Positions 1 through 11,282 of a stretch of 11,366 bases of DNA are shown in pieces. A program made the position numbers and the translations under genes. Source of the stretch: Acidobacteriaceae bacterium. Lineage in GTDB: Bacteria > Acidobacteriota > Terriglobia > Terriglobales > Acidobacteriaceae. Every line of letters begins with the position of its first letter. The stretch's first letter is position 1. The stretch covers positions 220 through 11,585 of the forward strand of contig PLBX01000008.1 of the NCBI GenBank assembly GCA_003135495.1, read 5' to 3'. The notes beneath the pieces are model-generated. The model saw only the letters and a program-made list of their open reading frames with translations, was not told the DNA's origin and did no database searches.

Positions 1-1070
1 CGGCAGAGTTCGCCGCTTTTTAGTGAAGTTCGTTTGCCGCCGCCAACAATTCCAGTCATGGTAAGGCCGAATAATAGCTGCTCCAGTTCGGTGATCGGGA
101 TCGTTAGTTCTCTCGCAATTTGGGCTCTCGTGATTCCGTCTTCATACAGAGCCCCGAATATTTTGGGCAACACTGCGGATGCCTCTCGTGGCGCTTCGTT
201 TGGTTCGGCATTCTTTCCCCGCTTCACAATCTCAATACACACTCCCCGATATTGCCAATCGCTCATCAAGCCCAGTCCATGTAACCGATATGCAAGCGCG
301 CTCACCGAAGTCGTCCATATTCTCTTGAGGTTAACCAGCGTGTTGTAAATCGGAAACTTAGGTGCATTTGCAAATACGCTCCCACGCGGCATCAAAAAGG
401 CGGAAGCAAAGGCGTTCGCCTGTTTCTCTGCTTCGATGCCTCGCGGCGGCCCGTGCTTATGAAGAACCAAATGCCCTAGCTCATGTGCAGCATCGAACCT
501 GCTGTGCTCCGAAGACTTATTGCTGTTAAGAAATACGAAAGGGGTGCCCCCCGTCCACATGGAGAATGCATCAACTTCCCTCGCGTCCAAGGCTAACGAA
601 AAGACACGGACACCATTCGCCTCCAACAAATGAATCATGTTCCTAATTGAAAGCGACCCAAGTCCCCAGAGACGACGTACAGTTTCTGATGCGGCTTCAG
701 GGTCGGGCTCTCGCCCTAGATCGGGGACTTGCACTTTTGGCAGCTCGAATTTCTTGCAGAGCCAAGCATTGAGATGCAGACCAAAAGCGGCTTGACTTAA
801 TGCCATATCGCGCTGCGGAGCTGTCATTTTAGACATTGATCGAAAGCTTCCGCTGTCCACACTAGGTTCTTCTAAATCGTCACCTTCAAAAAACTCAACA
901 GGAAATTGGAGAACCCTCACTATCCGAGACATCGTGTCTTCAGATGGAACAGTCGTCCCAGCCTCGTAAGCTTGGACTGACTTACGATCAACACCAATTT
1001 TCTCAGCGAACGCGAGTTTGTTTAACCCCTTTCGCTTCCTTGCAAGCGTAAGCCTACTCGGATTCAGCAT
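1..1070 (-). CDS. XRE-family regulator fused to ImmA/IrrE-type metallopeptidase (3' end off the window)
   Basis: The open frame runs from an ATG at 1070 off the left edge, about 356 codons without a stop. Residues about 5-60 form an XRE helix-turn-helix (core around KLAFAEKIGVDRKSVQAYEAG). After a linker comes a zinc peptidase domain with HELGH at about 196-200 and the downstream EKQAN/FLMP segment at about 215-228, which in this family carries the third metal ligand. XRE-ImmA/IrrE proteins are known to control integrative elements and prophages by cleaving a repressor, and others act in stress responses; here the DNA-binding and protease parts are in one chain. The residues after about 300 may form a second small helix-turn-helix (ITRAQIARELTIPITELEQLL). 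It starts 7 nt after the stop of the gene at 1078, so the two are probably co-transcribed. The ribosome binding site is weak. The family call is firm; the target is unknown. Confidence 0.9.
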   Translation of the reverse strand, partial: MLNPSRLTLARKRKGLNKLAFAEKIGVDRKSVQAYEAGTTVPSEDTMSRIVRVLQFPVEFFEGDDLEEPSVDSGSFRSMSKMTAPQRDMALSQAAFGLHLNAWLCKKFELPKVQVPDLGREPDPEAASETVRRLWGLGSLSIRNMIHLLEANGVRVFSLALDAREVDAFSMWTGGTPFVFLNSNKSSEHSRFDAAHELGHLVLHKHGPPRGIEAEKQANAFASAFLMPRGSVFANAPKFPIYNTLVNLKRIWTTSVSALAYRLHGLGLMSDWQYRGVCIEIVKRGKNAEPNEAPREASAVLPKIFGALYEDGITRAQIARELTIPITELEQLLFGLTMTGIVGGGKRTSLKSGELC

Positions 1071-1077
1071 CCACGGC

Positions 1078-1743
1078 TCATCCGAGTTTCTTAATTTCGA
1101 CAGTAATCTCAGGGCTTTGGCCACCATCGTCTCTTCCGAGCCTCACTATATCTGTGTCAAGCGGCGTGGGTGGGAAGACTATCCGTTCCGCCCAATCACT
1201 GACATAGCCATCATCGGCCATTGTGACCGGGCGCGATAGTTCATAGCGAAGTTCCCCGACTTCAAAGTCTCGATAAATCAAAAAAAGCCAAGTGGAGCGT
1301 CCCGGTATCTTCAACGAGGCGACTATTGGCGTCGGGTCTTCCATAAAGGCAAACCGCTGCTGTTCCCGATTGATCCTGACTGCATCCGCTGTTCGCGGTC
1401 CCTTGGGAGATCGTGTGCACGGAAATTGATCTGCACGCCCGGTGTTCTCATCGCCAGATGCCGCAGTGATTGCTATCGTTTTCGCTTCGTTGATTACGAG
1501 GGGCTGGTTCATCTCATTTTTTCTCGTCCAGCCTGAAGCCGTGAGTCCATCACGAATCGACCGATTGCCTTCGGCCCATGCAGCCAGTCCGGGGAAGGTT
1601 GGAGGGTGATTCGCAGTACATGATATATATGCTGTGAAATGTTCGTTGGCGGCAGTGACGAATGGCTCGCGGGTCAGCCCAAGCTGTGCAAGGCGTTCGT
1701 CAACATCATACGAGTCAACGTGGATTGGCGAAGATGAACTCAA
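1078..1743 (-). CDS. Hypothetical protein co-transcribed with the XRE/ImmA-IrrE gene
   Basis: I do not recognise a domain. I chose the TTG at 1743 because a strong purine-rich site (AGGGAGGGAG) lies just upstream of it. The frame also opens at a GTG at 1782, but no ribosome binding site precedes that codon. The product is about 221 residues, soluble-looking, with no signal peptide, membrane segment or cysteine motif. The C-terminal half (from about ASLKIPGRSTWLFLIYRDF) has alternating hydrophobic residues that suggest a beta-rich domain, and the end is EITVEIKKLG. The stop is 7 nt before the ATG of the downstream regulator-protease, so this is likely a functional pair. It could be the partner or substrate of the peptidase, but that is inference from position only. 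Confidence 0.6.
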   Translation of the reverse strand: MSSSSPIHVDSYDVDERLAQLGLTREPFVTAANEHFTAYISCTANHPPTFPGLAAWAEGNRSIRDGLTASGWTRKNEMNQPLVINEAKTIAITAASGDENTGRADQFPCTRSPKGPRTADAVRINREQQRFAFMEDPTPIVASLKIPGRSTWLFLIYRDFEVGELRYELSRPVTMADDGYVSDWAERIVFPPTPLDTDIVRLGRDDGGQSPEITVEIKKLG

Positions 1744-1775
1744 TTTCTCTCCCTCCCTATCAACTTCCCAGAATC

Positions 1776-1982
1776 TTACCACAAATGAGGGAGAAAACTG
1801 GGAAGTTCTGAATTTATTTCTCCACTGGGCAGGCGGCCCGCTTCCTTGGCGATAGCCTTACGCTTGGCTGGCTGCCATACCAGCCAGTCGTGGAGTTCGT
1901 TGTCAGTATTGGCGGAATGAGGTTCCACGTTCGCTCCTTGTGCCGTTATCTCTGCTGGCGTTTTCTTCCCCCCGATCTTCAT
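1776..1982 (-). CDS. Small hypothetical protein (68 aa), first gene of the minus-strand operon
   Basis: The frame runs from an ATG at 1982 and is preceded by GAGGGTGGCAGGAG, although the nearest GGAG sits only one base from the ATG. The product is hydrophilic, with a basic stretch in the middle (AKRKAIAKEAGR) and a Trp-containing segment (HDWLVWQP) before it. No known family is recognised. It ends 32 nt upstream of the preferred TTG start of the next gene, and overlaps that gene by 7 nt if the GTG start is used. Together with the two downstream genes it would form a three-gene operon. Evidence for coding is order, strand and spacing only. Confidence 0.4.
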   Translation of the reverse strand: MKIGGKKTPAEITAQGANVEPHSANTDNELHDWLVWQPAKRKAIAKEAGRLPSGEINSELPSFLPHLW

Positions 1983-2096
1983 GCTCCTGCCACCCTCTTG
2001 TTCAGGCCAAACGCTTCAACTCTGCTGTGCTTCGAAGTAATTCAATTGCATCGAACGTGCGAAGTTTAGCAGAAAAAGGAATCAGCACACGTGTGT

Positions 2097-2107
2097 GGGA
2101 TAATCCC
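2097..2107. promoter_or_regulatory. Perfect 11-bp palindrome at the start of the DUF5615-like gene
   Basis: GGGAT-A-ATCCC lies 4 nt before the ATG at 2112, within the 129-bp gap between two divergent genes. The inner GATAAT resembles a -10 box; if used, transcription would begin almost at the ATG and give a leaderless message, which would fit the absence of a ribosome binding site. No good -35 box is seen. It could equally be an operator or chance. Confidence 0.25.
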
Positions 2108-2111
2108 GCGT

Positions 2112-2545
2112 ATGGCAAGGAAGCGGGTGTTCCTTGACGAATGTGTCAGCGACCTCGGTCATGTTTTCGGGCTGAAGGCACACGTCTATACGGCACACGA
2201 TTTAGGAATGACCGGAAAGGAAGACACGCGAGTGATTGAGATGGCATTCAAACTGAAGTGCCTCATTGTGACCGTAAACAAAGATTTTCTGGACTACTAC
2301 TACAATCACCCGCGCAGAAAGGGAAAACGTGGCGTCTATTTTATGGGTTGATCTTCTTGAAGCCAAGCAAGCAGCTTACGCGAGAAAAGCAGCTGCGGCT
2401 TGCGTTGAAAACCATGGAATGGGAAGAGACGCGGCAGCATGACGATCTGGTTCGAGTATCTGCAACCGGGAAGACCCGACATGAACGACTCTGCCATCCC
2501 GAATGTGCGGCTGAATTTCCGAAGGAACAGGGAGAATGGGATTAG
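2112..2545 (+). pseudogene. DUF5615-like PIN-like protein, frameshifted
   Basis: The first frame (ATG at 2112) encodes RVFLDECVSDLG at the N-terminus, an acidic GKED at about 35-38 and IVTVNKDF at about 52-59. This is the layout of the DUF5615 PIN-like family, with acidic residues near D9, D38 and D58 in the positions expected for metal binding. The frame stops at 2349-2351 after 79 residues, just after GVYFMG. The -1 frame continues without a break into LIFLKPSKQLTREKQLRLAL and on to a stop at 2543-2545. Together they give about 144 residues, so one base appears to be missing near the GGG at 2345-2347. DUF5615 proteins usually act as toxin-like nucleases paired with a DUF433-type antitoxin, and no such partner is seen next to this gene. 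Decay, a sequencing error, or a truncated 79-residue product are all possible; no canonical slippery heptamer is visible. Confidence 0.65.
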
Positions 2546-2598
2546 CTCAACAGACAGTAGGGAAGTTCCCTTTTTCAGTCCTTCGGACTCGGGCCCGG

Positions 2599-3426
2599 TC
2601 ACCGGAGCCGCTCGAAAACCCAGCCTTCTAAATCTTCTGCAACCCAGTCGAACACCCCTAACCAAGTTTCGTTAATCTCAGCAGGAGGCGGCAGGGCGGA
2701 AAATGCACCTTGCCACCAATCTTTGTCCCGATATCTCAGGTCTGCGTGTGGATCGAGGGCCAGTACACGTCTGGCTTCGGGATACGAAGCGAACTTCCTA
2801 ACACATCTCGAATAAATGTCCAGCAACGCAGAAGCGAGTTGTGCGGGAAGATTGGTCGGGTCGACGTAGTCGAACACTGAGCTGCTACCGACGAACGTGA
2901 ACTTCAGACCCTTGCTGGGGGCGTCGTCCTCTTTTTCCCAATCTGGAACTTTCCCAAACGCCCAAGGCCAGCGGTCGTCAATGATTCCTTTAAGGATCGA
3001 TCCGGCTGCGACTTGAGACCATTGCGACCTGATTTGGCGAGCTGCTTTTAAAGCGAATGCCCGCAGTTCCGACTCCTTTCCCTCTATCAGCATTGGAAGT
3101 CTCAGCTCGTACAGGTCGTCGGGCGGGAGGCCTGTCAATTCTTCGCAGAATCGTTCGGTGACAAAGTGACTCTTCTTGTGTCGGTAGGGATAGTCAATCG
3201 GCCAAGAGATCGACTTTCTTTCGATCACAAGTTGAAGGTCTTGCTCTGAATCCACGTACAGTGCCTCGGGCTGAGGATTCATGCTGTCGATGCGGTCCAA
3301 GCACGCACGATGAACATAGTGGGAGCCGCCAGTTTGGTTTAGATGCTCAACAAACGCCTCGGTGAATGGTCTTTCGCAACCGCCGGATTCAGGTATACAG
3401 CTCATGACTTCTCTCCGCACTCCCAT
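2599..3426 (-). CDS. Hypothetical protein (275 aa) with a possible PD-(D/E)xK-like motif
   Basis: The frame starts at the ATG at 3426; a second ATG at codon 8 is an alternative. No family is recognised with confidence. Residues about 36-45 (HYVHRACLD) and the stretch YVDSEQDLQLVIERKS at about 57-72 resemble the D...(D/E)xK core of restriction-like nucleases, with D59, E69 and K71 as the candidate residues in a predicted beta-hairpin. The rest is mixed alpha/beta, with several Trp-rich segments (SWPIDYP, DDRWPWAFG, DKDWWQGAF) and an acidic C-terminus. There are no membrane segments. It is convergent with the DUF5615-like gene and divergent from the small gene at 3676. The nuclease idea is inference only. 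Confidence 0.7.
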   Translation of the reverse strand: MGVRREVMSCIPESGGCERPFTEAFVEHLNQTGGSHYVHRACLDRIDSMNPQPEALYVDSEQDLQLVIERKSISWPIDYPYRHKKSHFVTERFCEELTGLPPDDLYELRLPMLIEGKESELRAFALKAARQIRSQWSQVAAGSILKGIIDDRWPWAFGKVPDWEKEDDAPSKGLKFTFVGSSSVFDYVDPTNLPAQLASALLDIYSRCVRKFASYPEARRVLALDPHADLRYRDKDWWQGAFSALPPPAEINETWLGVFDWVAEDLEGWVFERLR

Positions 3427-3482
3427 CTGACGCCACGTTTACCTCCGGCGTTCAGGCCCAAAAAGTCGGCCCACACATCATC

Positions 3483-3504
3483 GAACAGTAGCGAAGTGCT
3501 GTTC
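3483..3504. promoter_or_regulatory. Inverted repeat in the divergent intergenic region
   Basis: GAACAG, 10 bases, CTGTTC form a perfect 6-bp inverted repeat about 57 bp upstream of the minus-strand gene at 3426. Its centre-to-centre geometry would suit a dimeric repressor. It does not match the E. coli LexA box, which has the arms in the opposite order. The 249-bp region around it contains no clear gene. Confidence 0.25.
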
Positions 3505-3675
3505 AACAATCTGTTTTCGCCGCGACAGTCGATAGCGTCCGCACATGGGGAAATTATGGCAGATCAATCTGGTGCTCTGCTCGCTCCCCCCTCACCTAAT
3601 TCGACAAATCTCGATTTTCACTTCCTCAGATAGAGACGGTCGGCGGACTCGAAACGCAGGAAGGTCACCACGGCA

Positions 3676-3942
3676 ATGAAGCAACCAATCGATGTGAACG
3701 GGAAGGTTCTCGACTTTAGACTTAGGAATTTCTTTGAATCGTATCAGGGCGAACTTGCACTCGCAGTCAAACACGTGAACGAGAGGTTCGCGTGGAGAAT
3801 CAAGTCTTTGGTCGATGACCATGGTGCCCTTGCCGTCGATGCCGCACTCAAGGATTTTTGGCTTACCGTCAGGCTACCCAAGACCCTGCACGACGCATTC
3901 GGCCCGACGACCATGCCCTACTTGTGGCCGTGCGAGGAATAG
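3676..3942 (+). CDS. Possible small hypothetical protein (88 aa)
   Basis: The plus frame from the ATG at 3676 has an even amino acid composition with two likely helices (LRNFFESYQGELALAVKHVN and GALAVDAALKDFWLTV). An AGGAAGG lies upstream, though about 11 nt from the ATG. No family is recognised. It stops about 150 bp before the tRNA fragment, so it would be the last gene of the element on this side. The opposite strand is also open at 3592-3822, but its composition (many Arg, Pro and Cys) looks like a shadow. Low certainty. Confidence 0.35.
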   Translation: MKQPIDVNGKVLDFRLRNFFESYQGELALAVKHVNERFAWRIKSLVDDHGALAVDAALKDFWLTVRLPKTLHDAFGPTTMPYLWPCEE

Positions 3943-3992
3943 GGATCATCACGACGAAGGGTTTGAAGGCATCGCTAAAGGACGCCGAACCT

Positions 3993-4011
3993 GATCCACA
4001 GCCGATCCACA
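3993..4011 (+). repeat. Direct repeat GATCCACA x2, 11-bp period
   Basis: GATCCACA occurs at 3993-4000 and 4004-4011, an exact repeat with an 11-bp period, about one helical turn. It lies on the presumed element side of the tRNA fragment. Arm-type binding sites for tyrosine recombinases or excisionases are often arranged this way; the assignment here is inference. Confidence 0.4.
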
Positions 4012-4012
4012 A

Positions 4013-4080
4013 CTTTGATATTTTCCAGCTAAAATCAAGGACTTTGGGCGGCTTCCTAATCTTCTAAGTCCTTTGATATT
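4013..4080 (+). repeat. Repeats next to the attachment site
   Basis: CTTTGATATT occurs at 4013-4022 and again at 4071-4080. An imperfect inverted copy, ATCAAGGACTT, lies between them, opposite AAGTCCTTTGAT, which covers the second copy. The set ends 15 bp before the tRNA-Val fragment, where recombinase arm sites would be expected. No gene is seen between 3943 and 4095. Confidence 0.35.
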
Positions 4081-4095
4081 CTTAGCCTGCTTGCA

Positions 4096-4140
4096 TTGAC
4101 ACGGTAGAGGTCAGGAGTTCGAGTCTCCTCGTGCCTACCA
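4096..4140 (+). tRNA. 3' half of tRNA-Val(GAC): attachment-site remnant
   Basis: Reading back from the 3' CCA (4138-4140): discriminator A4137, acceptor 3' strand CGTGCCT (4130-4136), T-stem AGGAG (4113-4117) pairing with CTCCT (4125-4129) around loop TTCGAGT, variable loop AGGTC, anticodon stem 3' strand GGTAG (4103-4107), and loop TTGACAC with anticodon GAC at 4098-4100 (Val). The 5' strand of the anticodon stem should be CTACC but is TTGCA, and no D-arm or 5' acceptor strand precedes it. This is therefore not a functional tRNA. Elements that integrate at the anticodon loop of a tRNA gene leave exactly this 3' segment duplicated at their distal end. Orientation predicts that the element lies to the left and that the intact gene is outside the window. 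A run of six T follows. Confidence 0.85.
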
Positions 4141-4196
4141 TTTTTTCCAATGGGTTAGCCCCTTAATTCCAACTGCCTGAGTCAAATCCCAAAACT

Positions 4197-4214
4197 TTTG
4201 TACTGGATTTGTAC
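4197..4214 (+). repeat. Direct repeat TTTGTAC x2, 11-bp period
   Basis: TTTGTAC occurs at 4197-4203 and 4208-4214, an exact repeat with an 11-bp period, 57 bp to the right of the tRNA fragment. It resembles recombinase arm sites, which would fit a second (tandem) element on this side. Confidence 0.35.
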
Positions 4215-4442
4215 ATCAATGATGTTCTGCATGTTTGCCTCTCTGGTCTTTCATTCGGGAACACGAATCGCCTCAGCGAAACTGCCCTCTTTCATGAAGC
4301 AGGAATTGCGTCAACTATTTGGTTGGCGATTCTTCAGCGCGCTCTGAAGCCGTTGCGGGGCAGAGGGGTGAGCAAATTTGTTGTACGAATCCCAGAACGG
4401 CTAAACGTATAGCACGAGCATTATTAGTTCCCCCTGACTGAC
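4215..4442. other. No gene recognised
   Basis: With the preceding bases from 4141, this makes about 300 bp between the tRNA fragment and the next gene. An open plus frame at 4209-4412 has no ribosome binding site and no recognisable motif. No integrase gene or fragment was recognised on either strand. I see nothing I can assign here. Confidence 0.4.
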
Positions 4443-4659: not shown

Positions 4660-5652
4660 CTAATACCCAATAGGCCTAATTTCATCCACGAATTTTGGAA
4701 TAACCCCTGTGCGTTGGCGTTCATTCCAGCAATCGATGCAATAATCGCTAGTGAGACTGCGGCAAGGGGATTTAGCACAGACCGTGCAAATCGGCGGAAC
4801 ATTGTTGTGAGCATGGGTGGCTGTTGGGGTTGTTCTCCCCTCCTCCATGATGCTCTCCTCGGTTTTCTGCCCAACTGCTTCCACCCTCTGCTTTGCTTCT
4901 TCCGCTTTTTTCCCGTTGGGCTTTTGGCCAAAGGGGAACAATGGCGTGCCATCATAATCATCATCCTTATCAAAGTTCATCAGTTCACCGATACCATCTA
5001 GGTTAGGGCACGGGGGCATGTCCCCAAGGTACTCATCCAACTCGGAATTACCCTTAGCCACCTTACATACCAAGAAATGATTCACATCCCGTTGGAGGGG
5101 TTCACCACAGTCTGAGCATGACTTACTTTGTCCATGTGGGGTTGGGGTCGGTTTTGGTTCTACGGTTCTAAGTTCTAGGTTTTTGGTTTGCCCTACTTCT
5201 TTTGACTTATCCTCTGCTTTTGGGGCGCTGGACTTATATTCACCAACAGCAGGAGCAGAAAACGGAGAGTCAAAAGAACCAGGAAACCTAAACCTATAAC
5301 CTTGTGCCGCATTTTGCGGCGGGGTGCATTCTGCGGGAGGTCGCAAATTGCGGTACTGAGCCTCAAATAATTCCACAATTACTGGAACGTTGATTGTTCG
5401 GACAGGTGTCCATCCAAAGGCCCACTGTTTCCTCTCTCCTGTGTCAATAAGCCAGCCATCCTTGACTAAGGCTTTGGTTTTACGCAGAACTGTATCATCA
5501 CTTACGCCAATAAATTCTGCCACGGTTTCCTTGGACGCATACAATGTATCGTTTCCTTCTGCCAGTTGAGCCGCCCACCCATAGAGGACTAGTTTGTCCA
5601 TTCCTTTTATTGCCCGGCATTCCAGAATCATTTCGCAGAGGGTGGTCATCAC
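4660..5652 (-). CDS. Winged-helix protein with two zinc-binding clusters, likely replication-initiation type
   Basis: The product is 330 residues. Residues about 18-85 read as a winged helix-turn-helix (LYASKETVAEFIGVSDDT, then VLRKTKALVKDGWL), the arrangement found at the N-terminus of phage and plasmid replication initiators and related regulators. A low-complexity linker rich in Pro, Lys and Glu follows. A CxxC-x9-H-x3-C cluster (C179, C182, H192, C196) lies in the middle, and a second cluster with CxxC pairs (C289/C292 and C305/C308, plus C297) lies near the end. The start overlaps the stop of the upstream 148-residue gene (ATGA at 5652-5649), typical of translational coupling. The replication role is inferred from the domain type and operon form; a transcription factor is the alternative. 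Confidence 0.75.
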   Translation of the reverse strand: MMTTLCEMILECRAIKGMDKLVLYGWAAQLAEGNDTLYASKETVAEFIGVSDDTVLRKTKALVKDGWLIDTGERKQWAFGWTPVRTINVPVIVELFEAQYRNLRPPAECTPPQNAAQGYRFRFPGSFDSPFSAPAVGEYKSSAPKAEDKSKEVGQTKNLELRTVEPKPTPTPHGQSKSCSDCGEPLQRDVNHFLVCKVAKGNSELDEYLGDMPPCPNLDGIGELMNFDKDDDYDGTPLFPFGQKPNGKKAEEAKQRVEAVGQKTEESIMEEGRTTPTATHAHNNVPPICTVCAKSPCRSLTSDYCIDCWNERQRTGVIPKFVDEIRPIGY

Positions 5653-9986: not shown

Positions 9987-10415
9987 ATTTGGTACGTGAC
10001 TGCTGAGTCAAAGTGGCGAATTATGGAAGTTTAGAGCGGATTGGGACATTACGTCAGCGCATTTAACTGAACCTCAGACGCACAATCGCTGGAGGAGCTG
10101 GGAACCAGCAGGGCGCAACGGATATTGAATCCGCCGCGTCCACAGAAATTCGATCCGTGCTAACCGATATCGCGGTGTGTAGGCAGTAGAACCACGGAAT
10201 TCGGCCGCTCTGCCATATTGCCGAAATCCGGAAACTTGCTGACTCGAAATAATTATGCATCCAGAACGGCAAAAACTGGTGGCCCAAACTGTGGCAACGC
10301 CACTGCTCACGGTAGATGATACGAATCCACGCAATGAAACCGGAATTCAAAAACTACGATCCGCACAGCGTCTACTCTGGGTGCACCATCCGAGTCGAAC
10401 ACCTTGGAGCGGCGT
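9987..10415. other. No gene recognised
   Basis: About 430 bp. The open minus frames at 10063-10350 and 10074-10334 overlap each other, have Trp/Ile/Ser-rich shadow-like composition and lack a convincing start. No tRNA, terminator or mobile-element end was recognised. It may be the boundary between accessory DNA and the chromosomal gene to the right. Confidence 0.4.
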
Positions 10416-11090
10416 TCATTTGCCCAGATGCTTTTTCAGGAATTCCAGCGAGCGATCCCGCGCCTGTTTCGCAGCCGAGGCATTGTAGCTCGCCCGATCA
10501 TTACAGTTGAACCCGTGGTCTGCTTCGTACCAGAAAATCTCCACCTCAGGATGAGCCGCGTGCACTCGATCTACTCCTACCTTTGGAATGTGTTTGTCCA
10601 GCGTGCCGAAGTGCAGCATCACCGGGCAACGAGGATTCTCCTGAGCAAAATTAGCGATATATCCGCCGTAGTATCCCACGGCTGCATCGGGGTTCAAGCG
10701 TGTAGCCGCAAGCCACGCCATGGTTCCGCCAAAACAGTAGCCAATGACCCCGCACTTCTTCGCCGTGTGTGTCCGCAAGTATCCCAAAGCAGCACCTATA
10801 TCCTTTACAGCGTCTGCGTGATTGATCTGCCTCGCCAGAGCGATCCCTTTCTGTAGGTCTGCGGCGTCATAGCCTAGTTCTACGCCCCGCTCAATTCGAT
10901 CAAACAATGATGGCGCAACTGTCAGAAAGCCGTCTTTGGCATAGCTGTCGGCCACTGAACGAATGTGACGATTAACTCCAAACGCCTCCTGAATGACCAC
11001 GAGCCCCCCAATGGGCTGGTCGCTCGGCGAGGACACGTATGCGTCGAGTTCATGACCATCGCTTACCCTTAGCCTGACTGTTTCGCTCAT
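10416..11090 (-). CDS. Dienelactone hydrolase family protein
   Basis: 224 residues, the usual length for the family; ATG at 11090 with CAGGAG 8 nt upstream. The alpha/beta-hydrolase triad is visible: nucleophile C119 in GYCFGG, D165 in GTLDKHIP and H192 in ADHGF. E35 (IQEAFGVN) is the residue that in dienelactone hydrolase pairs with the cysteine. The enzyme class opens dienelactone to maleylacetate in the chlorocatechol branch of aromatic degradation, but most genomic members have unknown substrates and no other pathway gene is nearby. Cytosolic, with no signal peptide. It looks like a resident metabolic gene rather than part of the mobile elements. The family is certain; the substrate is not. 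Confidence 0.92.
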   Translation of the reverse strand: MSETVRLRVSDGHELDAYVSSPSDQPIGGLVVIQEAFGVNRHIRSVADSYAKDGFLTVAPSLFDRIERGVELGYDAADLQKGIALARQINHADAVKDIGAALGYLRTHTAKKCGVIGYCFGGTMAWLAATRLNPDAAVGYYGGYIANFAQENPRCPVMLHFGTLDKHIPKVGVDRVHAAHPEVEIFWYEADHGFNCNDRASYNASAAKQARDRSLEFLKKHLGK

Positions 11091-11282
11091 ACGGCGTCTC
11101 CTGAAGATATTTTAGAACCATTCATTCGCTCCCTCACAGAGGGCAAATCGTAATACTCTCCTGCGTCCGCACCTATGAAACGCCGTAGCCGACCCAAACC
11201 CCGTCCCGGCAGGCAAATCCCAGCGGAAGGGGCTTCTCCTGAAAGGCATCCGAATCCAGTCGCCTAGCCGGACAGTGGCGGG

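Follow-up and report, generated by a model that had tools for sequence, protein, structure and literature searches.

The window, the whole stretch of 11,366 nucleotides analysed here, belongs to a 75%-complete Acidobacteriaceae MAG of 592 contigs and 4.76 Mb, and its contig, C253, ends 219 bases left of the window's left edge. On the plus strand, positions 4096..4140 hold the 3′ half of a tRNA-Val(GAC) gene, the core of an attachment (att) site, spanning everything from the start of the 7-nt anticodon loop through the CCA end. All 45 letters agree with the 3′ end of the intact tRNA-Val(GAC) genes that ARAGORN calls in relatives. The half comprises the anticodon loop TTGACAC (4096-4102, with the anticodon GAC at 4098-4100), the 3′ strand of the anticodon stem, GGTAG (4103-4107), the variable segment AGGTC (4108-4112), the T arm AGGAG-TTCGAGT-CTCCT (4113-4129), and the 3′ strand of the acceptor stem, CGTGCCT (4130-4136), followed by A73 (4137) and CCA (4138-4140). 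Just upstream, where the intact gene has the stem partner CTACC, TTGCA (4091-4095) stands instead. The original prediction, a half tRNA-Val(GAC) gene with its 5′ half missing and its stem partner replaced, is thereby confirmed. No other stretch on either strand of the window comes within 12 mismatches of the 38-nt core of this site, and the core occurs once in the MAG with up to 3 mismatches allowed; chance is ruled out as the source of the 45-base half. ARAGORN called no tRNA in the window. The single Rfam match, HPnc0260 (4102-4242, minus strand, E 0.026), is below the gathering score; since the matching part of its consensus resembles the complement of the 3′ end of a tRNA, HPnc0260 matches may be tRNA shadows.

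At the left end of the window, two adjacent minus-strand genes (3-1782) match the components of RosmerTA, a name for RmrT/RmrA that appears in a figure legend of PMC11883136. One gene (3..1127), which runs past the window's left edge, encodes an XRE and IrrE/ImmA protein (Pfam HTH_3 and PF06114) that resembles RmrA (PADLOC, E 4.4e-141); the other (1078..1782) encodes its RmrT-like partner (PADLOC, E 2.8e-56). Both match PADLOC models, and the likeness to RosmerTA is known here from sequence matches only; the pair is thus a candidate RosmerTA anti-phage defence system, possibly carried as island cargo. An RmrT homologue is present in 2 of the 61 genomes searched, this one included, so that the left cargo is sporadic. 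A short protein with the domain of unknown function DUF5615 (Pfam) is encoded at 2091-2351 on the plus strand.

The sequence adjoining the half (3993..4095, +), which would be the distal end of a left element, has a counterpart in the relative G011 (contig C16): the two are 94.3% identical over 158 bp (3993-4150), across the junction, and the fetched parts of G011:C16 share no other sequence and no protein with the window. As this comparison suggests, the roughly 100 bases left of the half appear to be conserved beside different cargo, as an attachment arm would be. Within them, a P-arm-like motif, TCTAAGTCCTTTGAT (4063..4077, +), starts 33 nt upstream of the core, and scores p = 0.003 with a left-arm profile built from 28 other halves and compared with 20,000 random 60-mers. 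The motif lies at 32-33 nt from the core in 14 of the 28 training halves. In leave-one-out scoring, 15 of these 28 reach p<0.01 and 22 reach p<0.05, against 4 and 6 of 58 control sequences taken upstream of intact tRNA genes.

On the other side of the half, a P′-arm-like motif, TTCCAATGGGTTAG (4145..4158, +), lies just past the CCA. It scores p = 0.001 with a right-arm profile derived from 29 flanks of intact tRNA genes with an integrase (compared with 20,000 random 30-mers), and it is the sole match of that score on either strand of the window. At p<0.01, the motif is found at 26 of the 29 integrase-bearing intact sites (leave-one-out) and at 24 of 29 scored halves (9 of 11 with an integrase and 15 of 18 without); two further halves with short flanks both reach this threshold. 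It also follows 12 of 26 intact tRNA genes for which no integrase was detected, and therefore is no proof of a second element. Further to the right, the minus-strand gene at 4660..5652 encodes a phage replication-initiation (O-like) protein (PHROG 391, E 6e-9). Among 24 genomes of the genus, this one included, its further matches are weak and confined to this genome and G004; since no strong match exists in the 23 others, the right stretch itself appears to be accessory. Toward the right end, a dienelactone hydrolase gene (10416..11090, -; Pfam DLH) marks where similarity to G004 and G017 resumes: positions 10386-11236 are 93.8% identical in DNA to G004:C79 and 80.7% to G017:C122, and strong protein matches (68% or more) occur only in these two among the 23 other genomes of the genus. 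In G004, integrase-profile fragments (L102, 1041-1835, -) lie about 5.6 kb from the dienelactone hydrolase gene, so that its neighbourhood there may be mobile.

The same site was examined in relatives. A search of 101 genomes, allowing at most 3 mismatches, found the 38-base core in 24, this MAG among them, and ARAGORN called an intact tRNA-Val(GAC) at 18 of 30 loci taken from core-bearing genomes. The exact 45-mer was found in at least 119 stretches of named genomes and gave no match in viral contigs. The 80 loci listed, all labelled Acidobacteria or groups within save one Rhodanobacteraceae, include Terriglobus roseus DSM 18391, Silvibacterium and Edaphobacter, and carry 81 copies (50 intact, 27 halves and 4 at contig edges). 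Together with the loci of other relatives, with duplicates merged and mismatched copies left out, the matches listed comprise 94 distinct exact copies outside the window: 59 intact, 31 halves and 4 at contig edges. Identity was predicted to start in the anticodon loop, and indeed most of the listed halves diverge there, while a few retain part or all of the anticodon stem. With a profile of 21 integrases, an opposite-strand tyrosine integrase was detected in the first 1 kb downstream of 29 of the 59 intact genes listed and of 11 of the 31 halves, any copy whose flank was short being scored as a miss; the 20 of 31 listed halves with no integrase found to their right were counted as contrary evidence. 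Three of the relatives' integrases were checked by Pfam, and all three match Phage_integrase.

Several contigs carry both an intact gene and a half. G007:C100 carries an intact tRNA gene (786-862), an integrase (873-2156, -) and a half core (60487-60524) 59.7 kb apart, with a further integrase hit beyond the half; an intact tRNA gene, an integrase and a half span 37.9 kb on G046:C51; and on G020:C24 an intact gene and a half are separated by 2.4 kb. G002 and G008 have an intact tRNA-Val gene with no integrase profile hit in the 2.6 kb downstream. What follows these genes is similar to the sequence after the G020 half, over 45 bp and 82 bp, and in G002 also to that after the half at L129, over 63 bp; no longer gene sharing was seen among the right flanks of G002, G008 and G020. 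Relatives yielded no unoccupied counterpart of the window's right flank. The right-side ORFs of the window were compared with the right flanks of 15 tRNA-Val sites and match none there; among those 15 sites, integrase-region genes are shared, and otherwise only G003 and G007:C175 have ORFs in common. Since the ORFs are mostly unshared among these sites and the window, the right side of tRNA-Val sites appears to be variable throughout. A separate locus (L116, G063:C7) holds two near-identical decayed tRNA-Val halves at 3847 and 6223, 2.4 kb apart, with flanks that match on both sides. Altogether, tRNA-Val(GAC) looks like a strong and heavily used integration hotspot in Acidobacteria.

Within the 75%-complete, 592-contig MAG itself, no intact tRNA-Val(GAC) gene was found. 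Neither the window nor the MAG holds its 5′ half, as searched with a 31-mer of the true 5′ sequence at up to 3 mismatches; an additional search with a 15-mer that is one letter off the true sequence, 3 mismatches allowed, also gave no match. No integrase was found in the window by Pfam (the ten largest ORFs and four more), by the 21-integrase profile in all six frames, or by tblastn with 35 queries, 14 of which failed BLASTP against two reference integrases. The GC content is 0.519 on the left side and 0.513 on the right, each at most about one standard deviation below a sample of 1-kb windows of the own genome (0.537, sd 0.024), which was counted against an island. Contig C72 of the MAG was considered as the missing left end and rejected, as its CCACCA misfits tRNA-Val. 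This contig opens on an apparent tRNA CCA (L242, positions 1-60), behind which lie a similar motif and an integrase; the break in the assembly seems to coincide with an attachment site. Elsewhere in the MAG, the same TTCAATGACTT motif stands behind a tRNA-Thr(CGT) gene, as does an integrase that contains an internal stop (L256, C237:2461-3098), and four loci (L045, L046, L052 and L244) have tRNA genes containing NN scaffold joins, one of which yields a false 131-nt tRNA hit.

Considering the exact half, its identity to intact genes and the architecture in relatives, we regard it as very likely that the half tRNA gene is the attachment-site scar of a tRNA-gene island, with positions 1-4095 as the distal part of the element. 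We propose the following course of integration. The attP of the element would carry the 3′ part of tRNA-Val(GAC), and a tyrosine integrase would recombine it with the chromosomal gene by a crossover within the 7-nt anticodon loop. The incoming 3′ half would restore the tRNA gene at the integrase end of the element, while the old 3′ half would be displaced to the distal end. The region 1-4095, with the RosmerTA-like pair, would be the distal part of such an element, and the intact tRNA gene and the integrase would lie left of the contig. That the half marks a distal end with its element on the left, as originally predicted, is supported by the comparison with elements integrated at tRNA-Val in relatives. 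The part to the right of the half is probably element-derived, since the flank after the CCA keeps the P′-arm motif; we consider it somewhat more likely than not that it is the remains or the proximal end of another element at the same site, whose own integrase would since have disappeared or been exchanged.

Such a scar is ordinary in kind and a textbook case. Of the 3919 islands reported by Islander, 3760 have a 3′ fragment and 2083 have anticodon-centred sites; 125 tandems, each of two or more, are counted, and the filters require that the intact tRNA gene lie 2-200 kb away on one replicon and point the same way (PMC4383910). The window resembles these tRNA-gene islands, as described there, in its 3′ fragment, in the logic of orientation and in the divergence at the anticodon loop, and relatives carry an integrase beside the restored tRNA gene; it differs in that integrase and restored tRNA gene are not visible on this contig. 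One feature of such islands, a 3′ fragment that exactly matches an intact tRNA gene, is present here, the intact genes being those of relatives. In the Islander tandems, each member is described as having its own tRNA fragment and integrase (PMC4383910). The relatives' halves that are followed by a further integrase (11 of 31 listed) are alike in this respect, whereas no integrase was found right of the window's half. The predicted tandem of elements gains some support: an integrase-site motif lies right of the CCA, and further integrases lie beyond the halves of some relatives, but as the fragment is present and no integrase was found on the right, the window may be called only tandem-like.

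The alternatives differ in how much of this arrangement they alter. The mildest departs from the scar of a tRNA-gene island on the right side only: the half would be a simple attR between an element to its left and ordinary chromosome to its right, and the right-hand motif would be a chance or leftover match. The lack of any integrase found on the right and the right-side ORFs without a counterpart at the 15 tRNA-Val sites agree with this, but the motif, at p = 0.001, is the only match of its score in the window, and the O-like gene without a strong match in the 23 other genomes of the genus indicates that the stretch itself is accessory; we therefore consider a simple attR unlikely, though still a serious alternative. 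It is decidedly less probable that the window comes from a circular phage or plasmid that has not integrated, with the half as its attP and both arms present. P-like and P′-like arms do flank the core on both sides, as they would in an attP, and the right side has a phage-like O-type replication gene. However, where integrases are seen at tRNA-Val sites they lie within 1 kb past the P′ arm, and none was found in the window, while the right end of the contig holds the dienelactone hydrolase gene common to G004 and G017, although this gene too is strongly conserved in just these among the 24 genomes.

Two further readings question the junction or the loss of the gene. An assembly chimera at the repeated tRNA 3′ end might be suspected from the NN joins within several tRNA genes of this MAG, but there is no N at the half-tRNA site, and G011 has a further copy of the left junction, over 158 bp, while the right junction is without an independent copy. 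The 45 bp of the half are also shorter than the usual read length, and a chimera is accordingly very improbable. Since group I introns can occur in the anticodon loop, the place of the break here, the half might belong to a split or intron-bearing tRNA gene still in use. With no 5′ half in the window or the MAG, and with an Rfam scan free of intron families up to E = 1, we give this reading hardly any credence. The attachment-site scar of a tRNA-gene island remains the preferred explanation.

A wider form of the right-hand motif, TTCAAYNACTT, is found within 10 bases after the 3′ end of tRNA genes at 49 places in 30 of 61 genomes, against 0 matches of its reversed control in all 61. The 30 places examined involve tRNAs for at least ten amino acids, and an integrase lies within 1 kb at 13 of the 28 that have 1 kb of sequence. 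In viral contigs, the pattern occurs in at least 120 stretches; the 80 loci listed give 81 matches, of which 80 have a paired T stem, with an integrase at 40 of the 69 that have 1 kb of sequence. Of the 9 matches to a scrambled control in viral contigs, 4 have a paired T stem, with an integrase at 0 of 8; the turned-round motif has 65 matches, of which 56 have a paired T stem, with an integrase at 4 of 52. The turned-round motif after tRNA 3′ ends is thus commoner than the scramble, mostly without an integrase (viral loci L509-L573). The left P arm is not general at viral sites, being found with one mismatch at 3 of 63 loci and exactly at none. A string search of the open literature found no description of the TTCAAYNACTT motif, and the arm-site consensus given for one element in PMC11963761 is a different sequence. 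We tentatively propose, as a possibility somewhat short of probable, that TTCAAYNACTT within 10 bp after the CCA is a general arm signature on the integrase side of tyrosine-integrase islands, across many tRNA types and shared by Acidobacteria and viral contigs. The window would then be a hybrid attP of two stacked elements at tRNA-Val(GAC), one of them lacking an integrase and dependent on that of its neighbour.

No description of a tRNA-Val(GAC) integration hotspot in Acidobacteria was found in the open literature at the level of titles. The present analysis maps an island end and such a hotspot in this group, and the short flank motif might allow island ends and integrase-less junctions to be recognised in fragmentary genomes.
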